In this document: positions 5,761 to 28,098 of the stretch, one piece after another
Numbering within the stretch: position 1 is the stretch's first letter
Layout of the letters: every line of letters starts with the position of its first letter
Assembly (NCBI GenBank): GCA_020720045.1
Contig: DYPH01000057.1
Span: forward strand, 1 to 35,626
Origin: Sorangium cellulosum
Lineage (GTDB): Bacteria; Myxococcota_A; Polyangia; Polyangiales; Polyangiaceae
DNA: 35,626 nucleotides
Direction of reading: 5' to 3'
Made by a program: the position numbers and the translations under genes
Notes under the pieces: generated by a model
The model's database searches: none
What the model saw: the letters and a program-made list of their open reading frames with translations, nothing else
Told to the model about the DNA's origin: nothing

Positions 5761-6120
5761 GGCAACCCTCCACGAAGACCGAGGACCGAGCACCTGAAAG
5801 ACCTGGCCGCTGCGCGTCCGCCCGGAACCGCCGAAGGCGGTGAGGAAACGGCGCGCAGGATGGCAGGTGCTCAGCAGTCAACGTGCCAGTTACCGAGAAG
5901 CTTTCCTCGCTGCGTGTGGGCAACGTAAAGTTTCATGGTGCCCCGGGATACGCGGACATTTCATCGCTTTCGCCCTTTCGCGAGCGGCCGCTTTTTCCGC
6001 CAGCGGCGCCGAGCTACACACACCGATCGAGCGCGTCCAGGGCGCCTGTGTCAGAGGCGCCTCATTCGCGGCGCAGCGGGAGATGGCGCCGGCTTCTCGG
6101 GAAACTCAAAAGCAGGAAAC
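5761..6120. other. 360-base intergenic region
   Basis: No gene is supported here. The region holds the upstream side of the PilZ-like gene, a 49-bp palindromic element (5810-5858) nested inside an outer 9-bp inverted repeat (GAGCACCTG at 5788-5796, CAGGTGCTC at 5864-5872), and the downstream flank of the lipoprotein gene that ends at 6121. The open frames crossing it change composition at the neighbouring genes and look like chance openings in GC-rich DNA. Confidence 0.6.
5810..5858 (+). repeat. 49-bp palindromic element, copy 1
   Basis: The element has 7-base arms (CTGCGCG and CGCGCAG) that are perfect complements, and a central hairpin CCGCC-GAA-GGCGG. Between arm and centre are asymmetric stretches (TCCGCCCGGAA on one side, TGAGGAAACGG on the other). 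It is the exact reverse complement of copy 3 at 28050-28098, all 49 bases. An outer copy-specific inverted repeat of 9 bp (5788-5796 and 5864-5872) extends the stem, with GGATGG between the inner and outer arms on the right side. No transposase or RAYT gene is nearby. Confidence 0.9.
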
Positions 6121-6857: not shown

Positions 6858-8810
6858 TCACATCCCGGCGAGGAGTTCGATGAGGAACGGCGCCGTCGCC
6901 ATGAGCTCCTGGGTCTTCATGCGATCGGCGAGGAGGATCGTCGCGCCGCCGGGCCCGGCATGCACGGCGACCGGGCATTTGCCGGCGCCGAGCACCTGCT
7001 CGGGGAAGAGGAACCCACCGACGGCGAGGCTGTCGTCGCCGACGGTCACCGAGCCGACCGCGAGCAGCACGAGGCCGGGGACGCGGGCGCCGGCGTCGAC
7101 GATGAGCTCGCCGGCGGCGTAGGGCTTCACTTCGAGTTGATCGAAGAACGGCGCGAGGAGCGAGCTGTCGACGCGCTGGCCGAGGGGGCCGACGGTGAGG
7201 CCGGCGCGGGCCTGGACCGGATCGGCCTTCTCGCGGAGCTCGTCTTCGACCCAGCTGCAGCTGGCGAGCGCTTCGGTGAGCGCCTCCGCTTCCCAAAGGG
7301 CGACGGTTGCCCCCTCTTCGGTTGCAAATACGCGGAGTTCGTTCGCCGGCTCCATGGTGCCGTAGCCGAGGAGCACTTCGCCAGCAGCGAGCGCGTGGAT
7401 CGGGGCATCGACCGCTTCCGCGGTGACGTCGACGGAACCGGCGACGATATAACCGAGCGCGCCGAGGGGGACCGACTCCCCCTCCTGGAGGCTCACGACG
7501 GCAGCCCGCGCGGCAAGACGCTCGCGGACGTCGTCGGGGAGGTCGGCGAAGGCTTCGACGCCGGCGAGATCGACGGCCGGAGCGCTCGTCCGCTCGTCGG
7601 CGGGCTCTTCGCTTGCCTCTTCAACCGGCACTTCAACAGCAATTTCGACCCCTTCTTCCGGGGTCGCGCCGCCTTCCGAGTCGGGATCAAGCGACACCGG
7701 CTCCAGAGAGACCGGCTCGAGGGACGTCGGCCCCTCTTCGATCACCGGCTCCCGGAGGGAGAGCGGCGCAGCCTCCGTTACGGCGACCGGCGGCATCGTC
7801 GGCCGCTCGGCGGCCGGGGAGGCGGTCGGCTGGGGGGTGCGATCGTCGTCGTCGAGATCGACCTCGGCCTCTTCCTCAGCGGCGGCGGCGGCAATCACCT
7901 GGGGGGCCTGCGCGCGCGCTTCGGGGACCGGCGCCTGCGGCATAGGCGGCGGTGCTTGCATCGGCGGTGGGGCGGGACGGGCCCCCGGCAGCGGCGGAAC
8001 TCCCGGACGAGCGGCACCCGGCAACGGCGGAACCCCCGGACGGGCGGCACCCGGCAACGGCGGAACACCCGGCGGACGAGCACCCGGCAGCGGAGGAACA
8101 CCCGGCGGACGAGCACCCGGCAACGGAGGAACACCCGGCGGACGAGCCCCCGGCAACGGCGGAACACCCGGACGAGCCCCCGGCAACGGCGGAACACCCG
8201 GACGAGCCCCCGGCAACGGAGGGACACCCGGCGGACGGGCCGCACCAGATCCTGGCAACGGCGGGGCCCCGGGGCGCGCAGCGCCAGATCCGGGCAGCGG
8301 CGGAGCGGCCGGTTTTGCGTCGCCGGTCGCCGCGCTGCCGATGGCACGGAGGGCGGGGCGCGCCGGCATCGCCGGACGGGAGGGTTCCGCGGTCGCTGCA
8401 TCGGTCGGCGCCGCGGCCGGCGTGGCCGGGCGGGCCGGGATCGGCGGGCGGGCCGGCGGCGGGCGGTCGGAGGTGCGCGCCGCCGGGGCAAAGGCGTCGA
8501 GGGGCGTCACGTAGGGCTTCGAAAGCGACGGAACTCCCTGAGAAATCGGCAGATCGTCGTCGACGGCGTCCCGCTTCCGGCGCACCAGGGCCGCGAGCTC
8601 CTCGGCGGCCTGTTCCAAGGCGGCGCCCCGGGCGTCATCGCCGTCGTCGGTCGCCGTCTGCGCGGCCCGGCGGACCCACACGAGCGCATCGAGGGGCTCC
8701 CCGCGATTCCAGAGCGTTTCCGCGGTCTGGAGGGCCCAGACGACATCCTCCCCATCGCCGGGGGCCGGGGAAACAAACGCAACGGCGGAGAGATCGGGCT
8801 TCGAGGTCAT
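6858..8810 (-). CDS. Cyclic-nucleotide-binding-like protein with PPLPG repeats
   Basis: The 650-residue protein has three parts. Residues 20-80 are helical and TPR-like ([21 protein letters not shown]). Residues about 110-420 are low complexity: a run of [10 protein letters not shown]-type repeats (168-280), then acidic and Glu/Pro stretches (310-410). The C-terminus holds two Crp/cupin-like sensor domains, about 419-515 ([16 protein letters not shown], then [10 protein letters not shown]) and about 550-648 ([20 protein letters not shown]). Each has the start of a cNMP-binding fold (helix, LxxGE strand, G-S-V strand). The phosphate-binding cassette RxA is not clear in either, so they may not bind cNMP. 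No DNA-binding helix-turn-helix follows. Such proteins often act as regulatory scaffolds; the role here is unknown. Confidence 0.75.
7971..8309 (-). repeat. Coding tandem repeats, PPLPGARP(P)GV
   Basis: About ten imperfect units of 30 to 36 bases lie inside the gene at 6858-8810. They encode a PPLPG core followed by ARPGV, ARPPGV, AARPGV or SGAARPG. Unit length varies by whole codons, so the frame is kept. The near identity of neighbouring units at the DNA level suggests recent slippage expansion. PPLPG repeats should form an extended polyproline II linker and might bind SH3-like or profilin-like partners, but no partner is visible. Confidence 0.85.
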
Positions 8811-11798: not shown

Positions 11799-12199
11799 GC
11801 GGAAAAAATCTCGACGGTCGCGCCCATTTGCACGTTAAAAATCGGTCACAAAAGGCAGCCCTGCGCGGGGTGCCCGAGAGCGCCGGGTCCCCGTTTCCAG
11901 GTTCAACCTGCGCGGAGTGACCTTGGAGGTCGGTCTCGCCAGGAAAATCTGCCCAAACCCGACACCGAGTGATCGAATTTCCAGCTTCGAACTAAAAAAT
12001 CCGACCTCGCAGATCGCTGCCGGCAGGTTGAACCTGAAAAATCGGACCGCGCGGGTCGGTTCCGCCAGGTTGATCCTGAAAAACCGACCTCACGGGTCGC
12101 TTCCGCCAGGTTGATCCTGAAAAACCGACCTCACGGGTCGCTGCCGGAAGGTTGATCCTGGAAAACCGACCTCGCGGGTCGCCCGCGGTCGGTCCCCGG
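11799..12199. other. Intergenic region with repeats
   Basis: This 400-base stretch contains the 5' flank of the broken gene (11799-11890), a 13-base near-palindrome CAGGTTCAACCTG at 11898-11910 and a related hairpin GACCTTGGAGGTC, then the 41-bp tandem array at 12001-12182. No coding frame is supported; the 86-codon minus-strand frame is the repeat translated and shifts register every unit because 41 is not a multiple of three. Confidence 0.7.
12001..12182 (-). repeat. 41-bp tandem array of terminator-like hairpins
   Basis: Four full units (12001, 12043, 12084, 12125) of 41-42 bp are followed by a partial fifth at 12166. Each unit contains CGACCTCACGGGTCG or a variant, a 5-bp stem with a 5-base loop, then AGGTTGATCCT (in the first unit the longer near-palindrome CAGGTTGAACCTG, 12024-12036), then a run of four to five A. 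Read on the minus strand, in the direction of the lipoprotein operon that ends at 12200, each unit is a GC hairpin followed by G and four to five T. This resembles an intrinsic terminator repeated in tandem. Confidence 0.8.
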
Positions 12200-12553: not shown

Positions 12554-13461
12554 TAGGGGATCACCTGGGTGGGAAAGGCACAGCGGAAGGCACTCGTAGA
12601 GGTCGGACTGCTAACGAAGCGGGTGGCCTTGGCACCGACACCGTTCGGGGTCCCTTCGCAGATGGGAAGCGTCCAGCCCATGTTTTGGGAGCCAGCCTCC
12701 GCGAGCAGACGGCGCGGATCGTCGCCCGGAAGCGCGCCGCAGGTCTCGGTGGCGCCCTTGTTGTGCGCTTCGTAGCCGCTGGATCGGATGAATTCCCACT
12801 CGCGGCCCGCGAGTTCGCGGTGGCCGAAGGGGGAGTCGGGCCCGATCGGCTGCGGCGTCCCGCGCAGGCACCCGGGAGGGCTGATGGCGAGCTCGGCGAG
12901 GGTCTCCGTGGGCAGGAACTCCTCGCCATCGACGAGCGCGCGAGCGAATTGGGCCTCCGTCGGCACATCGCCGCCGTACGCCCGGCAAAACGACCGCGCC
13001 TCGTCCGCCGACAGGGCAAGGCTGTCCGTGTAGTCACGCTCGACCGGGTGGAAGTTCCCCGCAACGCAGCGCCCATCGGCAACGCATGCGTCGAGGTCGC
13101 TCCGTCGCGCCTCCCGCACCATCAACAGGTAGCCGGCGACTTGAAGTTGAAGCGTTGGGAAGACCCCGGATTCGTAGCAAATCGTCGGCTCACAACCCAC
13201 AGGCGCGAAGCGTTCGGGATCGAAGGTGCAGCGGTAGGGGCTCACGGGGGCGCCGTACGGCCGCCACTCGCCGAGGTAGGCGATCCCCTCCGGGACCGGG
13301 AGCACGCCCCCGAGCGCGCCGGCCGACGGCGGGCGACTCCCGGACGCAAACGAGTGCTCGGTGATCGGAGGGCGATCAGCGGTGAGCTCGTTGCGGGAGC
13401 CGCAGGCGGCGAGGAAGACGAACGCGATAGCTGCGGCGAGCGGGGGGGCGAGCGTTCTCAT
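12553..13461 (-). CDS. Lipoprotein with formylglycine-enzyme (SUMF1) fold
   Basis: The 302-residue protein has a lipobox FLAAC (Cys20). The mature part matches the sulfatase-modifying-factor / C-type-lectin-like family. It shows SADEARSFCRAYGGDVPTEAQFARAL (the family's DAxxYCxWxGxRLPTEAEWEYA), then ELAGREWEFIRSS (the family's DMAGNVWEWT) and a C-terminal FRCAF (the family's GFRCVR). The paired catalytic Cys of true formylglycine-generating enzymes are not visible in the expected C-terminal GGSW-C region, so it is probably a binding or structural relative rather than an active oxidase. The ATG at 13461 overlaps the metallopeptidase stop as ATGA, and its TAA overlaps the next ATG. A 42-codon upstream extension of the frame is rejected because it lies within the previous gene. 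Confidence 0.75.
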   Translation of the reverse strand: MRTLAPPLAAAIAFVFLAACGSRNELTADRPPITEHSFASGSRPPSAGALGGVLPVPEGIAYLGEWRPYGAPVSPYRCTFDPERFAPVGCEPTICYESGVFPTLQLQVAGYLLMVREARRSDLDACVADGRCVAGNFHPVERDYTDSLALSADEARSFCRAYGGDVPTEAQFARALVDGEEFLPTETLAELAISPPGCLRGTPQPIGPDSPFGHRELAGREWEFIRSSGYEAHNKGATETCGALPGDDPRRLLAEAGSQNMGWTLPICEGTPNGVGAKATRFVSSPTSTSAFRCAFPTQVIP

Positions 13462-14903
13462 GGCTGTGTCGCCGAGAAGCCGGGGAAGGATTTGGCACGA
13501 TTGAACGCCCACGCGCGGACAGCCGTGCACTCGGAAGCGCTTGGCGGCCCTGCCTGTGTGTACGCCTCCGTGGGCATCAATCGGCAATCACTCGTCTTGC
13601 CACTGCAGTGTTTGAGTCCCGCCACATGCCCAATCTCATGCGCAAGCGCGTAGGATTCAGATTTTGGATCATAGCTCTGCTTGAGGCACGCTGGCGTTCC
13701 GGTACTTGCGAGCCCAATGATCTTGTTTGTGGGAAAGGAAACTCGGCTCATGACGATCATGTCGAGCGTCGAGTAGGGGTTCGCGTAGTTCTTTGAGATG
13801 TAGTCGGCGTTGTTTGAGCAGGGCGTCTCGTCCGGCGTCGTGTCGGCCCAGTAGACCGGATCCTCCGGTTTGGCATTTAGCTTGCTGAGCGGGAAACTGA
13901 ATTTCGGCTCACGAACAACGACCTGGTGGTCGACGAGACGGAACTGGACGCCGCAGGCACCGAACACGTCGTCGGGCGAGAGAGGACTCGGATAGCTCTT
14001 GCGGATGTCCTGTTTGAGTTCGTCGACTCCCAGGCTACTTGTCGTGACGGTGCGCGTTGCACGCGCCGGAACTTCTTGCGTCATAGCGAGCGTCGGACCG
14101 CTCGCAGCGGAAGCGCCGTACGTAATAACCGGGCCGGCATCCTGCGCAAAGCCGCCGTCCCAAAAACGCATTTGATTGCTCAGGGAATGCGTTTCCAACA
14201 TTCTCGTCGAGTCGGCCTTATCGACAATAACAAATACCCGAACGGGTACGAGAAGAACGTCGGGATCGAGCCGAGCTTGAAATTCCTCAATAGGTTCTGA
14301 GCGGAAATTCACGTCTTGGTGTTCGATGCGAATTTTCGCTCGGGAGTATCCAAGCCGAGTGCCCATGAATGCGATTTGCTGAAGGTCGCCCGCTTGCGCA
14401 ATGCCGTCTGGTGGGAGTGTCGCCATTTGAGGAACAAACGGTGCACCGCCGAACAAGGCTCCAACGGACCCGCTGGGGGCCTTCGATCCGAGTCTGAACT
14501 CGGGATCGTCGCTGGCGGCGATGAGGTTCAGGGCGTGCTTCGTGCGCGTCGTGCCGTAAATATTCTTTACGGTCTTCCCCTCGAACTGCTCGTAGACGTC
14601 CCCGACCTGGGGGTCGCTGTACTTTCGAAGGGTGTAGCCGTGGGCAATCACCGGGTTGTCGCGAAGCACGCGGAGGTCCTCGCGCAACTCCTTCCGCATG
14701 GTCGCTACGTCGCCGACCGATTCAAGCCACGTCTGGCGGTCGCTGAGCGTCGGCGGCAGCGCCTTGGGCGGCGCGTAGGGGACGGGCGAGAGCGCCTGGC
14801 TGGTCGAACCGGTATCGAACTCGGCGAAAGTCTCGCTCATACACGCGGCAGCGAGGATTCCACAGAGTCCGGACGTGAAAAGGACGGTTTTCTTGGCGGT
14901 CAC
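13458..14903 (-). CDS. Secreted zinc metallopeptidase lipoprotein
   Basis: The 481-residue protein starts at GTG 14903, seven bases after a GAGG ribosome site. The following signal peptide (TAKKTVLFTSGLCGILAAAC, lipobox LAAAC with Cys21) fits a lipoprotein. An alternative ATG at 14957 would put 18 charged residues before the signal. The C-terminus carries HEIGHVAGLKH (residues 422-432), the HExxHxxGxxH zinc site of metzincin-type proteases, with His422, His426 and His432 as ligands and Glu423 as base. LM at 442-443 may supply the Met-turn. The long N-terminal region (residues 30-380) has no recognised domain and may be a propeptide or a beta-rich binding part. Eight or more Cys suggest disulfides. 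Its stop overlaps the FGE-like gene. Confidence 0.85.
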   Translation of the reverse strand: MTAKKTVLFTSGLCGILAAACMSETFAEFDTGSTSQALSPVPYAPPKALPPTLSDRQTWLESVGDVATMRKELREDLRVLRDNPVIAHGYTLRKYSDPQVGDVYEQFEGKTVKNIYGTTRTKHALNLIAASDDPEFRLGSKAPSGSVGALFGGAPFVPQMATLPPDGIAQAGDLQQIAFMGTRLGYSRAKIRIEHQDVNFRSEPIEEFQARLDPDVLLVPVRVFVIVDKADSTRMLETHSLSNQMRFWDGGFAQDAGPVITYGASAASGPTLAMTQEVPARATRTVTTSSLGVDELKQDIRKSYPSPLSPDDVFGACGVQFRLVDHQVVVREPKFSFPLSKLNAKPEDPVYWADTTPDETPCSNNADYISKNYANPYSTLDMIVMSRVSFPTNKIIGLASTGTPACLKQSYDPKSESYALAHEIGHVAGLKHCSGKTSDCRLMPTEAYTQAGPPSASECTAVRAWAFNRAKSFPGFSATQP

Positions 14904-15696
14904 AAATACCTCAACATTCGGACGTTTGACGTCGACTCGCTCGGCACCCAGGCGCATATCACGACCGTACGCGGCTGAGCACGTGGAAGGCTTGTGGCCC
15001 CTGTCAGATGCCGACTGGTGTTCGTGCTTAGCCCGAACCTGCCGACAGGATTTCACGCAATTCCGGCCGGTCTTCATGCTGCCGGAGCTGGTTGACCCAA
15101 TGCCGGCCGGTTTTCACGCTCTGCCGGCGCTGGGTCACCCAATGCCGGCGGGGTTTCGGGCTCTGCCAACGGGTCTTCACGCAATGCCGGCCGGTTTTCA
15201 CCCAATGCCGGCGGGATTTCGCGCTCTGCCGGCGCCGGCATTCACCAAACTCGCGCCGGCATCGGGTCCACTCGCGCCGGCATCGACTGAACTTGCTCTG
15301 GCATCGGGTCAACTCGCGCCGGCATCGGGTCCACTCGCGCCGGCATCGGGTCAACTCGCGCCGGCATTGACTGAACTTCCTCCGGCATCGGGTGAACTCC
15401 GTCCAAAAGCGGGCAAACTCCGGCCGAAAGCGAGCAAACTTGCGCCGGCATTGACTGAACTTCCTCCGGCATCGGGTGAACTCCGTCCAAAAGCTCGCAA
15501 ACTCGGGCCGAAAGCGCGCAAACAGCGGCGGCATCGCTCAACCGGGCGCCGGCAGCGGGCCACGTCGAGCGGGCATCGACCCACCGGCGACCTGTGTGAG
15601 ACCGGCGGCGCTCTCGGATCGGTTTGCCGATTGAGGGACAGCGACTCAGCGCCCGTCAATTTCTTCGAAAACAGCCTGCAAGGTCTTCGCGAAACC
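14904..15696. other. Promoter-side intergenic region with repeat array
   Basis: The stretch holds the 5' flank of the metallopeptidase operon (14904-15050), the two-armed 21-bp repeat array (15052-15560) and about 130 unremarkable bases. Several long frames are open on both strands only because the 21-bp unit contains no stop and is a multiple of three. None has a convincing start with a ribosome site. Confidence 0.6.
15052..15560. repeat. Two-armed inverted array of 21-bp units
   Basis: About nine units in one orientation (core ATGCCGGC then GGTTTTCACCCA, from about 15052 to 15230) meet about thirteen units in the opposite orientation (GCCGGCAT with CGGGTCAACTCGC, about 15240 to 15530). The arms meet at a perfect 14-base palindrome, TGCCGGCGCCGGCA, at about 15227-15240. 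The right arm degenerates into units with CCAAAAGC and CCGAAAGC. Both strands read as Met-Pro-Ala heptads (MPAGFHP on plus, MPARVDP on minus). There are no spacers and no flanking cas-like genes, so it is not a CRISPR. Confidence 0.85.
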
Positions 15697-15945: not shown

Positions 15946-16761
15946 TCACCGGCGAAAATGCTCGATGCGGTCGGCGAAGACGACGGAAATCGCCTCGGAA
16001 GAGGGCTCCGCGAAGAGGGCGATCGGCATCGCTTCGAGCTCGTAGAGGACCTCCCCGTCCCCGCGGAAGATCGTCTTTGAACCGACGAAGATCCACTCGT
16101 TCCCCGATTTTGCCGCCAAAAAGGGGAGCGTCTCCAAGCGATAGGTGGCTCGCATTCCGCCGCCCATATCGAATTCGCGGAGGTCGTCGCAGACCGCGAC
16201 CAGCGTATCGCCGCTGCCGCGGAGCGCGACGTACCCTTCCTCGCGATGGACGAGGGCGAGACCTTCTGCAGTTCTTGCAAAAAAATCAATGTGCCCATCG
16301 AGGGTAAGGCTCACCGCCACCCCGGTCGCGGTCGCGTGCACGCGGTTGTGGGAGCAGAAGAAATCCTCAAGCGCGACGTGCGAAACCGCGCCGCTGCCAA
16401 GGGTGTGTTCGATGAGGAAGCCGTCTTCCGAAACGTACCAAAGGCGATCCTCCACGAGCGAGCCGAGCGCGTAGCAATCGCCCATCACCGGAAAAGAGAG
16501 CGCCTCCTTGGAGCCGTCTTCCCCGCATAGAGCGTTCGCCGTCGCGACGAGCCAGCGGTCGCCGGCGAAGACCGCAAACCGAGGCTCTTCCTCGAAAGAA
16601 AGTCGCTTTGTGGCTCCACCGCCGCCCGCCGGGGAAATCAGGAGCGCGTCCGACGGGCCGAGGAGGCAATAGCGCCCCTCCCCGGCGAAGAAGACCCGTC
16701 CGAACCATTCCCCGCGCGGGATCGGGGTGACGCCCGCGCGCTGCCAGGTGTTCCTGTTCAC
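15946..16761 (-). CDS. Propeller-like protein coupled to ftsK
   Basis: The 271-residue protein has no signal peptide and is nearly all beta strand, with about six repeats in the style of FAVFAGDRWLVATANALC, LVEDRLWYVSEDGFLIEH and VALRGSGDTLVAVCDDLREF. This suggests a small beta-propeller in the cytoplasm. The start is GTG at 16761, chosen because it overlaps the ftsK stop as GTGA and gives a compact protein; the frame is open upstream only as an antisense or overlapping accident over ftsK. No family is recognised. Coupling to ftsK suggests expression at a fixed ratio with the translocase, not proven function in division. Confidence 0.7.
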   Translation of the reverse strand: MNRNTWQRAGVTPIPRGEWFGRVFFAGEGRYCLLGPSDALLISPAGGGGATKRLSFEEEPRFAVFAGDRWLVATANALCGEDGSKEALSFPVMGDCYALGSLVEDRLWYVSEDGFLIEHTLGSGAVSHVALEDFFCSHNRVHATATGVAVSLTLDGHIDFFARTAEGLALVHREEGYVALRGSGDTLVAVCDDLREFDMGGGMRATYRLETLPFLAAKSGNEWIFVGSKTIFRGDGEVLYELEAMPIALFAEPSSEAISVVFADRIEHFRR

Positions 16762-19700
16762 AGCGTCGAGATCAAGACCTCGCGGTCCTTCGATCCGTTG
16801 GCGGGGCCGACAACCCCTCGCTTTTCCATCATTTCTACGATACGGGCCGCCCGGTTGTAGCCGAGGCCTAGCTTGCGCTGGAGCCAGGAGGTCGAGCAGC
16901 GGCGGGTGTCTGCGACGATGCGGAGGGCGTCGTCGTACATGGCGTCCTGCTCGGCGTCCTCCTCGACGACCGCCCCCTCTTCGTCGCGCGGCTTGAGGAT
17001 GTTTTCGTCGTAAATCGGCTCCCCCTGCTTGCGGAGGTGATTCGTGACGGCGTCGACTTCCTCTTCGCTGATCCACGGGCACTGGACGCGGCGCGTGTCG
17101 TTCGTTCCGTTGAGGCGGAGGAGGAGGTCGCCGCGGCCGAGGAGGTGCTCGGCCCCCTGCTCGTCGAGGATCGTCCGCGAGTCGACCTTCTGCGCCACCC
17201 GGAAGGCGATACGCGTCGGGAAGTTCGCTTTGATCATGCCGGTGATGACGTCGACCGAGGGGCGCTGGGTCGCCAAAATCACGTGCATCCCGGCGGCGCG
17301 GGCCTTTTGAGCAAGGCGGGCGACGGCCGCTTCGACTTCTTTCCCTTGCTGCATCATCAAATCGGCGAATTCGTCGACGACAATCACAATGTAGGGGAGC
17401 TTCTCGGGGAGCGGGGCGACCCCTTCCACGTCGTCTTTGACGAACTCTTCAAAGCCGTTGTGGTCCTTCGTTGAGACGACCTTCGCGTTTGGATTTTTCG
17501 CCTCGCCGCGCGCCACACGGGCGACCCAACCGTTGTAGGTGCCGATGTTCTTCGTGCCGGCATCGGCGAAGGCTTGGTAGCGACGCTCCATCTCGTCGAC
17601 GGCCCACTTGAGCGCGTTCGCCGCCTGCTTCATGTCGGTGACGACCGGGAGCAGCATGTGGGGAATGCGATCGAAGGGGGCGAGCTCGACGACCTTCGGG
17701 TCGATCATAAGCATGCGCAAATCGTCAGGAGTTCTGCGGTAAAGGAGCGACGTCAGCATGACGTTGAGCCCGACCGATTTACCGGCACCGGTCGCGCCGG
17801 CGACGATGACGTGGGGCATCGAGGCGAGGTCGGCGAAGACCGGGTTGCCGACGATGTCGCGGCCGACGACGACCGGAAGCGGCACGTCGTACTCCTGAAA
17901 GCGCTTGTCTTCGACGAGCTCACGCAGGCTCACCGGCTGCCGCTTTTCATTCGGCAACTCAAAGCCAATTCGGTTCTTCCCAGGGATCGGCGCGACGATA
18001 CGCACCTTCTTCGCGAGCGCGAGCGCGAGGTCGTCGGCGAGACCGGCCACCTTGGAGACCTTCGTGCCGGAAGCCGGGGAGACTTCGTAGGTCGTGACCG
18101 TCGGCCCCGGGAGGATCTCTTCGACCTTCCCGGAAACACCGTAGTCGGCGAGCGTCTTGATCAACAAATCGGCATTCTTGAAGAGAATCTCTTTGTCGAT
18201 CATCGCCGAAGGATCGGCTTTTTGAATGCTCAAAAAATCGATCGACGGGAGCTCGAATTCCTTCTGCATCCGCACCATCACCGGCGGCGGCGACTCGACG
18301 TGCGCGGAGTGGACCGAAGAGGCGGCCGGGATGACTTCCAAGGCGGCGGTCGTGTCGACGATCACCGGGTTCGCCGGCGCCGGCGGCATCGCACGCCCAC
18401 CGGCACTCGCGCCGCTGGAGACCGGGCTCGCGACCGGCTTCTCCGCCGCCCGGAGGACGCGCCCACCGGGGAGCGGCAGCGGAGCCGCAACTGGCGCAAC
18501 TGCCGCAACTGCCGCAGCAGGAGCGGCAGGCGCAACGCGCGCGATCGAAATCGGGCTCGGTTCGTCGTCCGCGTCGTCCGCCTCGTCGTCATCGCCGTCG
18601 AGGGCGTCAACCGGCTCTTCTTCCTCGGATTCGTTGCCGAAATCTTCGTCGAGCTCGTCGGTCCCGTCGGCGGCGTCGTCTTCAAACGCGGGGGCAAAGG
18701 CGGCGACCGGCGGCGGCGTTGCGGTGCGCGGCCGAAGCGTAACGAGCGGCGCGGCAGCAGCTGCTCGTCCGCCCGGAACCGCCGTAGGCGGTGAGGAAAC
18801 GGCGAGCACGGATGGAGCTGCAACGGACGCGACGGAACTGGCGACGACCGGCGCCGCGAGGGACGCCAAGGCCGGTGCGACGACGATCGCCGGCTCGACG
18901 AAAGCCTCCACGTCTCGTCCCGGCGAAGCGCCGGATCCGAGAACTTCCGCAACTTTCGGCTTCCGCCCCCGCTTGGCGGCGACCGGCACCTCGGCAGGAG
19001 CCACTTCAGCAAGGGCAGCAGGCGCGCGCACCAGTGCCGGCGCGACCGCGCGGGATGCCGGGACGATGTCGTGGTCGGCGAGCGCATCGGCGATCGGATC
19101 GCTGTTTCGCAGCCCGGTGCCTGCGCCTGCAACTGCAACTGCCTGCTTCTTTTCGCGTTTCACGGCGACGACCGCCGACGGGCTCGGGGAGCCTTCGAAG
19201 ACGAGCGGCGAGGTGTCGTCGGCCGGCTCTTCGACGGGCGGCGGCAGGCTGCGACGGACCGGCGTGCGGACAACGGCGGCATCGATGGCCGGCGTGAGTT
19301 CAATCCGCGGGCGCTCTGCTTCCCGACGCTCGGCGTCGAGTTCGCGGGCCTTCCGCCAGGCGTCGGCGAGCGACTGGGCACCGCGCGCCGTCGTCGCCGC
19401 ACTGCGGGAACCGAGCGTCGCGAACAGGCGAATCAATGCGATAAACGAGAAGGTCGATCGCCCGATGCAGACGAGCGAGAGGAGCGCGAAACCGACGAGG
19501 AAGGAGCCGATCGTCGAGAAGAGCGACCGGGACACCTCGCCGAAGAGCTCGCCGACGGCGCCGGCAGCATCATGATTTCCAAAGGCTTTTGCCGCCGGCC
19601 AGCCGACTTGCACGAGGGCCGCCGTCAGGAACGCGATCGCAAAATCGCTCCCGAGGCGCGCCGGCGTGAGGGTGCTCCGCCGGTTCGTGACGAAGGGGAT

Positions 19701-20033
19701 CCCGAGAAGAGCAATCTCCGCCGGAACGATCCACGCGATGATCCCAAGCAACGACACAAGCCCGCGCGCCGCCCCTTCGCCGACGGGGCCGACCCAATTC
19801 GCGCCGGTCGTCGCCGGAACGCCTTCTGCCGGCGGGGTCCCGTCGCCCGCGTAGGAGGCGAGCGCGAGCGTGAGGAAGAGCGCCGCCGTCCAGAGGAGGA
19901 GCGCCCCGATTTCCCGGCCGCGCGCGTAGTGGTCGGCTCCGGTGCCGAGCACCTTCGGGAGCTTCATGTTCGACGGCAGCGAAACCCCGGCTTCCGGGAG
20001 CGGTCGACGAGGGGCGAAAAGCGGAAGTCCCAT
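16758..20033 (-). CDS. ftsK: DNA translocase FtsK
   Basis: FtsK pumps DNA at the division septum to clear the chromosome termini and activate XerCD recombination. The 1091-residue protein has about four to five membrane segments (43-62, 90-116, 127-148, 170-202). A long Ala/Pro and acidic linker covers about 210-590. The motor has Walker A GATGAGKS (746-753) and Walker B IVIVVDEFADL (882-892), plus the family motif ILATQRPSVDVITG at 919-932. A C-terminal winged-helix gamma domain (about 1033-1091, RCSTSWLQRKLGLGYNRAARIVEMME) reads orientation sequences. A 49-bp palindromic element lies in frame within the linker (residues about 410-424). The start could instead be Met23 (19967); a weak AGG eight bases upstream favours the one given. 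Confidence 0.95.
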   Translation of the reverse strand: MGLPLFAPRRPLPEAGVSLPSNMKLPKVLGTGADHYARGREIGALLLWTAALFLTLALASYAGDGTPPAEGVPATTGANWVGPVGEGAARGLVSLLGIIAWIVPAEIALLGIPFVTNRRSTLTPARLGSDFAIAFLTAALVQVGWPAAKAFGNHDAAGAVGELFGEVSRSLFSTIGSFLVGFALLSLVCIGRSTFSFIALIRLFATLGSRSAATTARGAQSLADAWRKARELDAERREAERPRIELTPAIDAAVVRTPVRRSLPPPVEEPADDTSPLVFEGSPSPSAVVAVKREKKQAVAVAGAGTGLRNSDPIADALADHDIVPASRAVAPALVRAPAALAEVAPAEVPVAAKRGRKPKVAEVLGSGASPGRDVEAFVEPAIVVAPALASLAAPVVASSVASVAAPSVLAVSSPPTAVPGGRAAAAAPLVTLRPRTATPPPVAAFAPAFEDDAADGTDELDEDFGNESEEEEPVDALDGDDDEADDADDEPSPISIARVAPAAPAAAVAAVAPVAAPLPLPGGRVLRAAEKPVASPVSSGASAGGRAMPPAPANPVIVDTTAALEVIPAASSVHSAHVESPPPVMVRMQKEFELPSIDFLSIQKADPSAMIDKEILFKNADLLIKTLADYGVSGKVEEILPGPTVTTYEVSPASGTKVSKVAGLADDLALALAKKVRIVAPIPGKNRIGFELPNEKRQPVSLRELVEDKRFQEYDVPLPVVVGRDIVGNPVFADLASMPHVIVAGATGAGKSVGLNVMLTSLLYRRTPDDLRMLMIDPKVVELAPFDRIPHMLLPVVTDMKQAANALKWAVDEMERRYQAFADAGTKNIGTYNGWVARVARGEAKNPNAKVVSTKDHNGFEEFVKDDVEGVAPLPEKLPYIVIVVDEFADLMMQQGKEVEAAVARLAQKARAAGMHVILATQRPSVDVITGMIKANFPTRIAFRVAQKVDSRTILDEQGAEHLLGRGDLLLRLNGTNDTRRVQCPWISEEEVDAVTNHLRKQGEPIYDENILKPRDEEGAVVEEDAEQDAMYDDALRIVADTRRCSTSWLQRKLGLGYNRAARIVEMMEKRGVVGPANGSKDREVLISTL
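18762..18808 (+). repeat. Palindromic element copy 2, inside ftsK
   Basis: The core, including CCGCC-GTA-GGCGG and the asymmetric flanks TCCGCCCGGAA and TGAGGAAACGG, is the same as in copies 1 and 3 except for one loop base. The arms are TGCTCG and CGAGCA instead of TGCGCG and CGCGCA: one base changed on each side, so pairing is kept. An outer pair GCAGCT and AGCTGC extends the stem, again with GGATGG on the right side as in copy 1. Read on the minus strand, it encodes about 15 residues of the ftsK linker (AVSSPPTAVPGGRA) without breaking the frame. Confidence 0.85.
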
Positions 20034-22023: not shown

Positions 22024-22166
22024 TTTCAGGATGCGTTCTCCAGTCCGGCAAATCGCCGGGCGGAGGCAGAGGCATCGCCGGCCCCCGCCGGCGGTGCGAG
22101 CGGCGGAAAAGTTTTCACCCCGCCTCGTCGGAGTGAATCGGTGATCGAGAACGTAGGAGTCGGACG
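22024..22166 (+). promoter_or_regulatory. Gap with hairpins before the FHA gene
   Basis: The gap contains the hairpin CCGGCAAATCGCCGG (about 22045-22059) and a GCCGGC-type inverted pair near 22078-22095. These could end the lipoprotein transcript, although no T run follows directly. TAGGAG at about 22154-22159 is a good ribosome site, seven bases before the next ATG. Confidence 0.4.
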
Positions 22167-24049: not shown

Positions 24050-25818
24050 CCGAAGCGTCCGTCCGCGAAGCGGGAGGCGGCGCGGAGTTCGATGCACACG
24101 CGTCGCCCCCTGTCCCGGGGACCGACGAACGGGTTCCGCGCCCGCTCGCGCGACGGGTCCTCCTCGCCTTCGGGTTCGCCTTTGCCGTCTCGGCGATGAC
24201 GTCGCTTTTTGCCGTCGGAGCCCTCCGCCGGGCCGGCCGCGACACCGAACGCCTCGCCACCGGCTTCGTTCCGGTCGCTCTTGAACTCGCCCGCCTCCGC
24301 GCGACGCAAAGCTCGATCGCGACGCTTGTCGACGGCATCCCCGACGATCGCGATCCCTTGGCCGAGCGCCGCCTTTTGGAAGCGCTCGCCGCCGCCCGCG
24401 CCGGCCAGGTACGCAGCTGCCGGAAGTCCTTAGAAGCACTCTCTCTTTCTGGGACCGACGCCCCCGCGAATGAGGCGGTGAACGGCTTCCGCGATCGCTT
24501 GGAGGAAGCGGCGCGCCTCTTCGCCGACGACGATGGAAAATTCGCCGCCCTGGAAGGGACCGGCGAGCGGATCAACCGGCTCGTGATCGACCTCGGTGGC
24601 CGCGAGCACGACGCCTCCAAGAAGCTCGCAAGCCTTCAAAACGACGTGACAAAAACGATCACCGCGACCGCGACCGAGCAGCGGGAAGCCGACGGGCGCA
24701 TGCTCGCCGGACTGGTGCTTTTGTCGTTTGCGTCGGCGCTGGCCGCCTGGTTCGTCGGTCGGCGCCTACAGGTCCTCCTCGCCCCGGTGGCGCGCCTGGA
24801 GTCGCGGGCGCGGGCGGTCGCACGGGGCGATCTCGAACCGCGGGCCGTCGATCCGGGCCCCGACGAGCTCGGTCGCCTCGAAGCGGCCTTCGAAACGATG
24901 GTCACCGGGCTCGCCGCCGCCCGCGAGCGTGCCGTCGCCGCGGAGCGCTTTGCCGCCATCGGAAAAATGGCGGCCCACGTCACCCACGAGATCCGCAATC
25001 CGTTGAGCGCCATCGGCTTAAACCTCGATCTTCTTCAGGAAGATCTTGCCGAAAGCGGCGACGTGGGTGAGCGGACCACCCTCGTGAAGGCGATCGCCCG
25101 CGAGGTCGCCCGCCTTGAAGCGCTCTCCGAAGAATACCTGCGCATGGCCCGCCTCCCGACGCCGCGCCGCGATGGCGATGACCTGGTTGGCGTCGTCGAA
25201 GATGTCGTCGCCTTCTGCGAACCGGAAATGGCGCGCGCCCGGTGCACGGTCACCGTCATCGTCGAACCGGACGCAAGTTCAAGTGGGCCCGCCGTCTCTC
25301 GCGACGAGGGTCGCGAACGGACGGGCCCGAGTCCAAGTGGGCCCGCCGTCTCTCGCGACGAGGGTCGCGAACGGACGGGTCCAAGTGGGCCCGCCGTCTC
25401 TCGCGACGAGGGTCGCGAACGGACGGGCCCGAGTCCAAGTGGCCCGAAGCTCCTCTTCGACGAAGCGCAAATTCGCCAGGCGCTTGCAAATTTGCTCCGA
25501 AACGCCCGCGAGGCGATGCCTCACGGCGGCCCGATCACCGTGACGGTCGCCCGCGAAGGGCTCGCAGTGACGGTGACCGTCGCCGACGCCGGGGAAGGCG
25601 TCCCCGAGGCGCTCCGCGCATCGATTTTTGAAGCGTTCTTCTCGACAAAAGGGAACGGAACCGGCCTCGGCCTCGCGATCACACGCCAGATCGTCCGCGG
25701 CCACGGCGGCGATCTCCTCTGTCTCGCAGCCACCGGTGATTCAAAAGGCGCGCGGTTCCGCATGATCCTCCCGCTCTCGCCGGCCCGAGACGCCGCCGAC
25801 GAAGCCGGCCTCCTCTAA
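24046..25818 (+). CDS. Sensor histidine kinase with repeat insertion
   Basis: The 590-residue protein starts at GTG, which overlaps the preceding stop (GTGA). Order: a membrane helix at 37-60, an extracytoplasmic helical sensor at 61-215, a membrane helix at 219-240, and a HAMP domain at 240-295. The HisKA part follows with the phospho-acceptor His314 in AAHVTHEIRNPLSAIG, then the ATPase with N box NLLRNAREAM (482-491), G1 DAGEGVP (514-520), F box FEAFFSTK (528-535) and G2 GTGLGL (538-543). A three-unit repeat insertion of 52 residues (413-464) sits just before the N box, in a loop, with the motifs intact. No response regulator gene is adjacent, so it is an orphan kinase here. The following gene is rph, 51 bases on. 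Confidence 0.92.
   Translation: MTEASVREAGGGAEFDAHASPPVPGTDERVPRPLARRVLLAFGFAFAVSAMTSLFAVGALRRAGRDTERLATGFVPVALELARLRATQSSIATLVDGIPDDRDPLAERRLLEALAAARAGQVRSCRKSLEALSLSGTDAPANEAVNGFRDRLEEAARLFADDDGKFAALEGTGERINRLVIDLGGREHDASKKLASLQNDVTKTITATATEQREADGRMLAGLVLLSFASALAAWFVGRRLQVLLAPVARLESRARAVARGDLEPRAVDPGPDELGRLEAAFETMVTGLAAARERAVAAERFAAIGKMAAHVTHEIRNPLSAIGLNLDLLQEDLAESGDVGERTTLVKAIAREVARLEALSEEYLRMARLPTPRRDGDDLVGVVEDVVAFCEPEMARARCTVTVIVEPDASSSGPAVSRDEGRERTGPSPSGPAVSRDEGRERTGPSGPAVSRDEGRERTGPSPSGPKLLFDEAQIRQALANLLRNAREAMPHGGPITVTVAREGLAVTVTVADAGEGVPEALRASIFEAFFSTKGNGTGLGLAITRQIVRGHGGDLLCLAATGDSKGARFRMILPLSPARDAADEAGLL
25282..25437 (+). repeat. In-frame palindromic repeat, three units, in kinase
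   Basis: Units of 54, 48 and 54 bases lie at 25282, 25336 and 25384, followed by the start of a fourth at 25438. Each carries TCGCGAC-GAGG-GTCGCGA, a 7-bp inverted repeat, inside outer arms GGGCCCG and CGGGCCC or CGGGTCC. The two unit lengths differ by a GAGTCC/GGCCCGAG hexamer, so the reading frame is kept. The encoded motif is SGPAVSRDEGRERTGP. The units are almost identical, which points to recent amplification. The insertion adds 52 residues to the ATP-binding domain. Confidence 0.9.
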
Positions 25819-28049: not shown

Positions 28050-28098
28050 CCTGCGCGCCGTTTCCTCACCGCCTTCGGCGGTTCCGGGCGGACGCGCA
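28050..28098 (-). repeat. 49-bp palindromic element, copy 3
   Basis: It is the exact reverse complement of copy 1 (49 of 49 bases), with perfect arms CTGCGCG and CGCGCAG around the central hairpin. Outer bases GGTA (28041-28044) and TACC (28100-28103) can also pair, so the stem is longer than the conserved unit. It sits in the 172-base gap between the subunit I-like gene and atpB, where it may affect the transcript or simply be a tolerated insertion. Confidence 0.9.

Follow-up and report, generated by a model that had tools for sequence, protein, structure and literature searches.

A triple palindromic array carried in frame by a sensor histidine kinase gene of Sorangium cellulosum

Protein-coding palindromes and the P75 family

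Most of what is known about palindromes carried in frame within genes comes from Rickettsia and Wolbachia, whose reduced genomes make the picture harder to read. The Rickettsia RPEs are hairpins that have become part of unrelated genes without disturbing the frame, and the one enzyme tested with such an insert was still active (Ogata et al. 2000, 2002; PMC2229807, PMC10969869). Intragenic copies, some of them in repair genes, also occur among REPs with GTAG or CGTC tags (PMC3733652), and some MITEs (107-bp Correia, ERIC and YPAL; PMC2229807) are found within genes too. Here we describe P75, a new family of this already known kind, protein-coding palindromes, from a 35,626-nucleotide window of Sorangium cellulosum DNA and from the 6.34 Mb genome to which it belongs (G000). 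No earlier description of P75 was found in the literature searched, which comprised open-licence papers. Rickettsia-like protein-coding palindromes exist in large-genome myxobacteria too.

P75 and the RPEs are alike in being short hairpins of which several families occur per genome, lying both between genes and in frame in unrelated conserved genes, with about half of the copies in genes; in both cases the insertions are tolerated. P75 is a long palindrome that is scattered through the genome, lies in frame in various unrelated genes and is absent from the corresponding (empty) sites of orthologues. The likeness drawn here is one of features, and P75 is not an RPE proper: it belongs to a large-genome myxobacterial lineage (Myxococcota) rather than to Rickettsia, measures 75 bp instead of 105–146 bp, is very G+C-rich, and forms head-to-tail tandem arrays with a 10-bp tag. 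With REP/BIME elements (PMC2817692, PMC3733652) it shares an unpaired tag at one end, clustering, and some intragenic copies, DNA repair genes included, and RAYT-like genes are present in this genome. In contrast to those elements, its tag is CTGTYGAAGT rather than GTAG or CGTC, its hairpin is longer, no rayt gene was found flanked by it, the arrays are direct rather than alternating repeats, and the intragenic share is higher. Like the intragenic MITEs it is small and non-autonomous, has open frames, makes in-frame fusions and shows empty and filled sites between relatives, but neither TA target duplications nor terminal repeats of a recognised IS were seen, and tandem amplification is frequent.

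The array in the kinase gene

The earlier note on this DNA, made from the letters alone, had described three near-identical units of 54, 48 and 54 bases with nested palindromes, inserted without loss of frame in a histidine kinase ATPase domain just before the N box. Coordinates (Table 1), hairpin folding and the open reading frame all agree with this description. Every unit contains a 44-nt nested hairpin, GGGCCCGCCGTCTCTCGCGACGAGGGTCGCGAACGGACGGGCCC, with GGGCCC ends; the reading frame stays open across the array; and Pfam recognises HAMP, HisKA and HATPase_c domains, with the N-box helix encoded 3′ of the insert. The kinase copies of P75 are without 21 bp of the inner hairpin. With the insert excluded, dN/dS against the congener is 0.067, and the kinase gene is therefore under purifying selection.

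Table 1. Features of the kinase gene and its array (positions in the window)
Feature	Positions	Strand	Basis
Sensor histidine kinase (HAMP, HisKA, HATPase_c), 590 aa	24046..25818	+	ORF (GTG start), Pfam, orthologues, dN/dS
P75 triple tandem array, internally deleted form (54+48+54 bp; units begin at 25282, 25336 and 25384)	25282..25437	+	
Hairpin 1, 44 nt, GGGCCC...GGGCCC	25285..25328	+	
Hairpin 2, 44 nt; 3′ arm end GGGTCC fused to next tag via 6-bp deletion	25339..25382	+	
Hairpin 3, 44 nt	25387..25430	+	
Terminal tag and collapsed hairpin end; tag-scar motif CGAGTCCAAGTGGCCC	25431..25446	+	

Alignment of orthologues places the site at a turn that joins two strands, the second of which leads into the N-box helix. 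An AlphaFold model of the kinase (mean pLDDT 81), whose fold matches HisKA/HATPase_c kinases such as ZraS, has the low-pLDDT insert (residues 415–460, below 50) between strands 400–406 and 468–471, followed by the N-box helix at 473–489. The insert is accordingly predicted to be a disordered surface loop of about 50 residues, rich in Ser/Gly/Pro/Arg/Glu, between two ATPase-domain strands, as one of the two placements first proposed would have it. The other, an effect on the ATP lid, is not supported because the lid lies further along the domain than the insert. We infer that the effect on the kinase is likely neutral or slight.

Dispersal of P75 and its filled, empty and scar states

Side-by-side reading of copies showed the P75 unit to consist of a 10-bp tag, CTGTYGAAGT, and then a 65-bp hairpin, GGGCCCGCCGTCTCTCGCGACGCCGCTCCCAGCAAATTCGCTGGCGGTCGCGAACGGACGGGCCC, with GGGCCC ends, 75 bp or 25 codons in all and usually preceded by GGCCCC. 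The palindrome folds strongly in its 65-, 75- and 56-nt forms (z ~ -5; none of 200 shuffles folded as well), and the 75-bp unit is stop-free in five of the six frames. Copies occur singly or head to tail in arrays that repeat every 75 bp; units within one array have their own mutations and tag in common, which indicates that arrays grew by local duplication. Intragenic copies lie in differing frames and both orientations, and hence encode different peptides.

The suspicion that the unit might recur in other genes was borne out. With the 156-base array as query, 53 scored matches, dispersed through the genome, were obtained in G000 and 26 in G001, its sole congener in the comparison, together with one weak match in a third genome, that of a further relative, and none in the other relatives searched. 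In a set of 184 genomes from the same order (Polyangiales-type Myxococcota), only G000 and G001 matched a 78-bp P75 consensus. The kinase orthologues come from Polyangiaceae-type Myxococcota, and the contig with the congener's kinase matches JAAFHJ01, a Myxococcales MAG. There was no Rfam match for P75. A phage or plasmid origin was rejected, with no match in phage or plasmid collections.

A census covered 0.953 Mb of the 6.34 Mb, with a locus defined as an arm with at most one mismatch and genes called by a simple codon-usage gene finder (85.5% coding). It returned 45 loci: 19 intragenic, 14 intergenic, 4 partial and 8 at contig edges. Thus at least 19 of the 37 placeable loci, about half, are intragenic; one called intergenic (C15:3048) actually lies within an alpha/beta-hydrolase-like reading frame, as judged by alignment to the congener. 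From 18 loci in ~393 kb of contigs not chosen for matches, we estimate ~290 loci per genome. Eight G000 contigs (C1, C2, C4, C12, C20, C294, C345 and C353) break off at or close to a P75 array, and within such an array C294 contains a stretch of N; the true copy number is thus probably underestimated. Host genes include priA (a 30-bp remnant), recD, a MATE transporter, a HAGH/glyoxalase II-like gene, genes for LuxC- and LuxE-like proteins, a ChrR-cupin protein and an FHA protein, and a second kinase with its insert also within the HATPase_c domain. The recD copy (C353:1529-1632; L107) has a 39-bp F3-like palindrome nested in the P75 hairpin, with the frame still kept.

The multiple-of-three unit length had been read as a sign of filtering for coding. 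By itself it is not one, since 75 bp is intrinsic to the element and most intergenic arrays have 75-bp units too; filtering is visible only in length variants. A difference from 65 bp that is not divisible by three was seen in none of 21 intragenic and 6 of 23 intergenic hairpins (3 loci), a contrast that is partly circular because a frameshifted locus would not be called intragenic.

The two species are polymorphic for P75. Three clean empty sites were found: C15:3048, filled in G000, differs from congener locus L137 by exactly 75 bp within the alpha/beta-hydrolase-like ORF, and the congener is filled at L131 (75 bp, versus G000 C7) and L141 (72 bp, versus C353). P75 has GGGCCC ends and its flanks are GGNNCC-like; at the three clean sites the boundaries are blurred by substitutions. 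Most other differences are of copy number at sites occupied in both species, in whole units (G000 versus congener: 3 versus 1 at C306, 2 versus 1 at C189, 1 versus 2 at C7:6240).

At the kinase site the congener reads CGAGTCCAAGTGGCC CGAGTCCAGGTGGCC, in which there are two tags and the collapsed ends of hairpins but no hairpin itself. The possibility raised in the earlier note, that orthologues lack exactly 156 bases, held only in part. The segment is missing from 86 more distant orthologues, which have a short turn there (e.g. ED-GLP) and relative to which the kinase has ~56 extra residues; the excess over the congener is 141 bp, not 156, because the congener retains a 15-bp scar unit. That the segment is a native part of the kinase domain is ruled out by those 86 orthologues. 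Tag-only states were also seen in the congener at C353:1529 and C166:23538. Deletion between the GGGCCC ends would be a simple explanation of such scars, the scar state being presumably the derived one. A strict-tag scan of the sampled G000 contigs for scars of tag plus GGGCCC found none, and scars are therefore recognised mainly by comparison between species.

Origin of the array and other repeats in the window

We consider it very probable that the array arose by local triplication of a copy of P75, and that P75 is a non-autonomous protein-coding palindrome, MITE/REP-like and comparable to the Rickettsia RPEs; most likely the array is tolerated as a passenger and gives the protein a floppy surface loop. 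An ordinary local tandem duplication that copied native kinase sequence, without any mobile element at its origin, would account for the internal deletion common to the three units, and this deletion does imply that the last steps were local duplication, but the dispersed family and the exact 75-bp empty sites elsewhere refute that origin and leave it next to no probability. Three near-identical in-frame copies in a gene that as a whole is under purifying selection might instead mean that the array has a function in the protein and adjusts how the kinase binds ATP or makes contact with its phosphoacceptor domain or with a partner. We regard this as highly improbable: the congener has only a scar and the 86 other orthologues lack the segment, P75 in unrelated proteins is read in different frames as different peptides, and the loop is predicted to be disordered and distant from the ATP lid. 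It is also improbable that P75 is kept for a role as nucleic acid (mRNA stability, transcription attenuation or chromosome structure) with coding copies as by-products. The strong hairpin would suit such a role, as would the at least 13 intergenic loci and the depletion of P75 from genes relative to the 85.5% coding; against it stand the occurrence of either orientation inside genes, the large copy-number differences between two congeneric species and the lack of an Rfam match.

Another reading takes P75 for a true RAYT-type REP, whose tag and hairpin foot would be recognised by a Y1 tyrosine transposase of the genus that cuts ssDNA and inserts 3′ of a CCCC-like target. G000 has 9 to 12 copies of PF01797-type transposases and G001 has ~14, and their close relatives are confined to the genus; P75 left flanks read GGCCCC and then TG, and transposase elements start CCCCCTGG; and the palindrome F3 lies just 3′ of several Y1 transposase genes. 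Yet at nine PF01797 loci, inspected up to ~1.5 kb on each side, no P75 pair flanked the gene and one locus had a single upstream copy, and neither an autonomous element nor a P75-flanked transposase was found. P75 also has no GTAG or CGTC tag and is longer than REPs (20–40 bp). Its overall similarity to the transposon is not significant (one weak 13-base match), and descent from a RAYT transposon by deletion was rejected. Because P75 neither flanks Y1 genes nor resembles them in sequence, we think mobilisation of this type unlikely, and a RAYT-like transposase confined to the genus is a candidate mobiliser and no more. An empty-site search for the RAYT transposon itself found both flanks in the congener at one locus only, with a boundary that was not clean.

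Under the preferred reading, a tolerated P75 passenger, a single unit would have inserted at a GC-rich site of the kinase gene, perhaps moved by a transposase acting in trans. It could have been tolerated because the unit keeps the frame, most frames are open and a surface turn was hit. Comparison of the two species suggests that in the G000 lineage the inner hairpin then lost 21 bp before tandem duplication, and that in the congener the hairpins were deleted, possibly by slippage, leaving tag scars. Whether P75 is in addition shaped for intragenic life, and thereby supplies the proteome with new loops and linkers, is doubtful; on that proposal the multiple-of-three length and five open frames of six would make almost any insertion translatable, and hairpin loss would leave a five-codon linker. 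The genus has an estimated ~290 loci, is represented by two sequenced species, shows the filled, empty and scar states and contains genus-specific transposase candidates, which makes it a workable system, suited to asking how palindromic elements move, are tolerated and seed new protein loops.

A further palindromic family in the same window had also been noted, and three are present, F2, F3 and F4. F2 (GCCGTTTCCTCACCGCCTTCGGCGGTTCCGGGCGGACG) has window copies at 5815-5852, 18766-18803 and 28057-28094, only the second of which is called intragenic (gene 16758-20033); 0.95 Mb holds 23 copies, 10 of them called intragenic. F3/F4 palindromes lie at 18912-18945, 22034-22067 and 24055-24090, and also at L032. 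The kinase ORF, whose start codon is uncertain, has its first codons overlapped by F4, and beside F4 the congener carries an in-frame F3 insertion of 39 bp. F3, and in some copies F4 too, is found directly downstream of Y1 transposase genes; the Y1 (PF01797) transposase element (L121-L129) has the left end CCCCCTGGCCCAGGCCAGG and the right-end hairpin AAATCCAGCTGTCAGCTAGATTT. The window also carries a 33-bp tandem repeat (7980-8238) within gene 6858-8810, a 41-bp tandem array (11996-12182) between called genes, and a 21-bp tandem array (15040-15523) directly upstream of the minus-strand gene 13458-15077.
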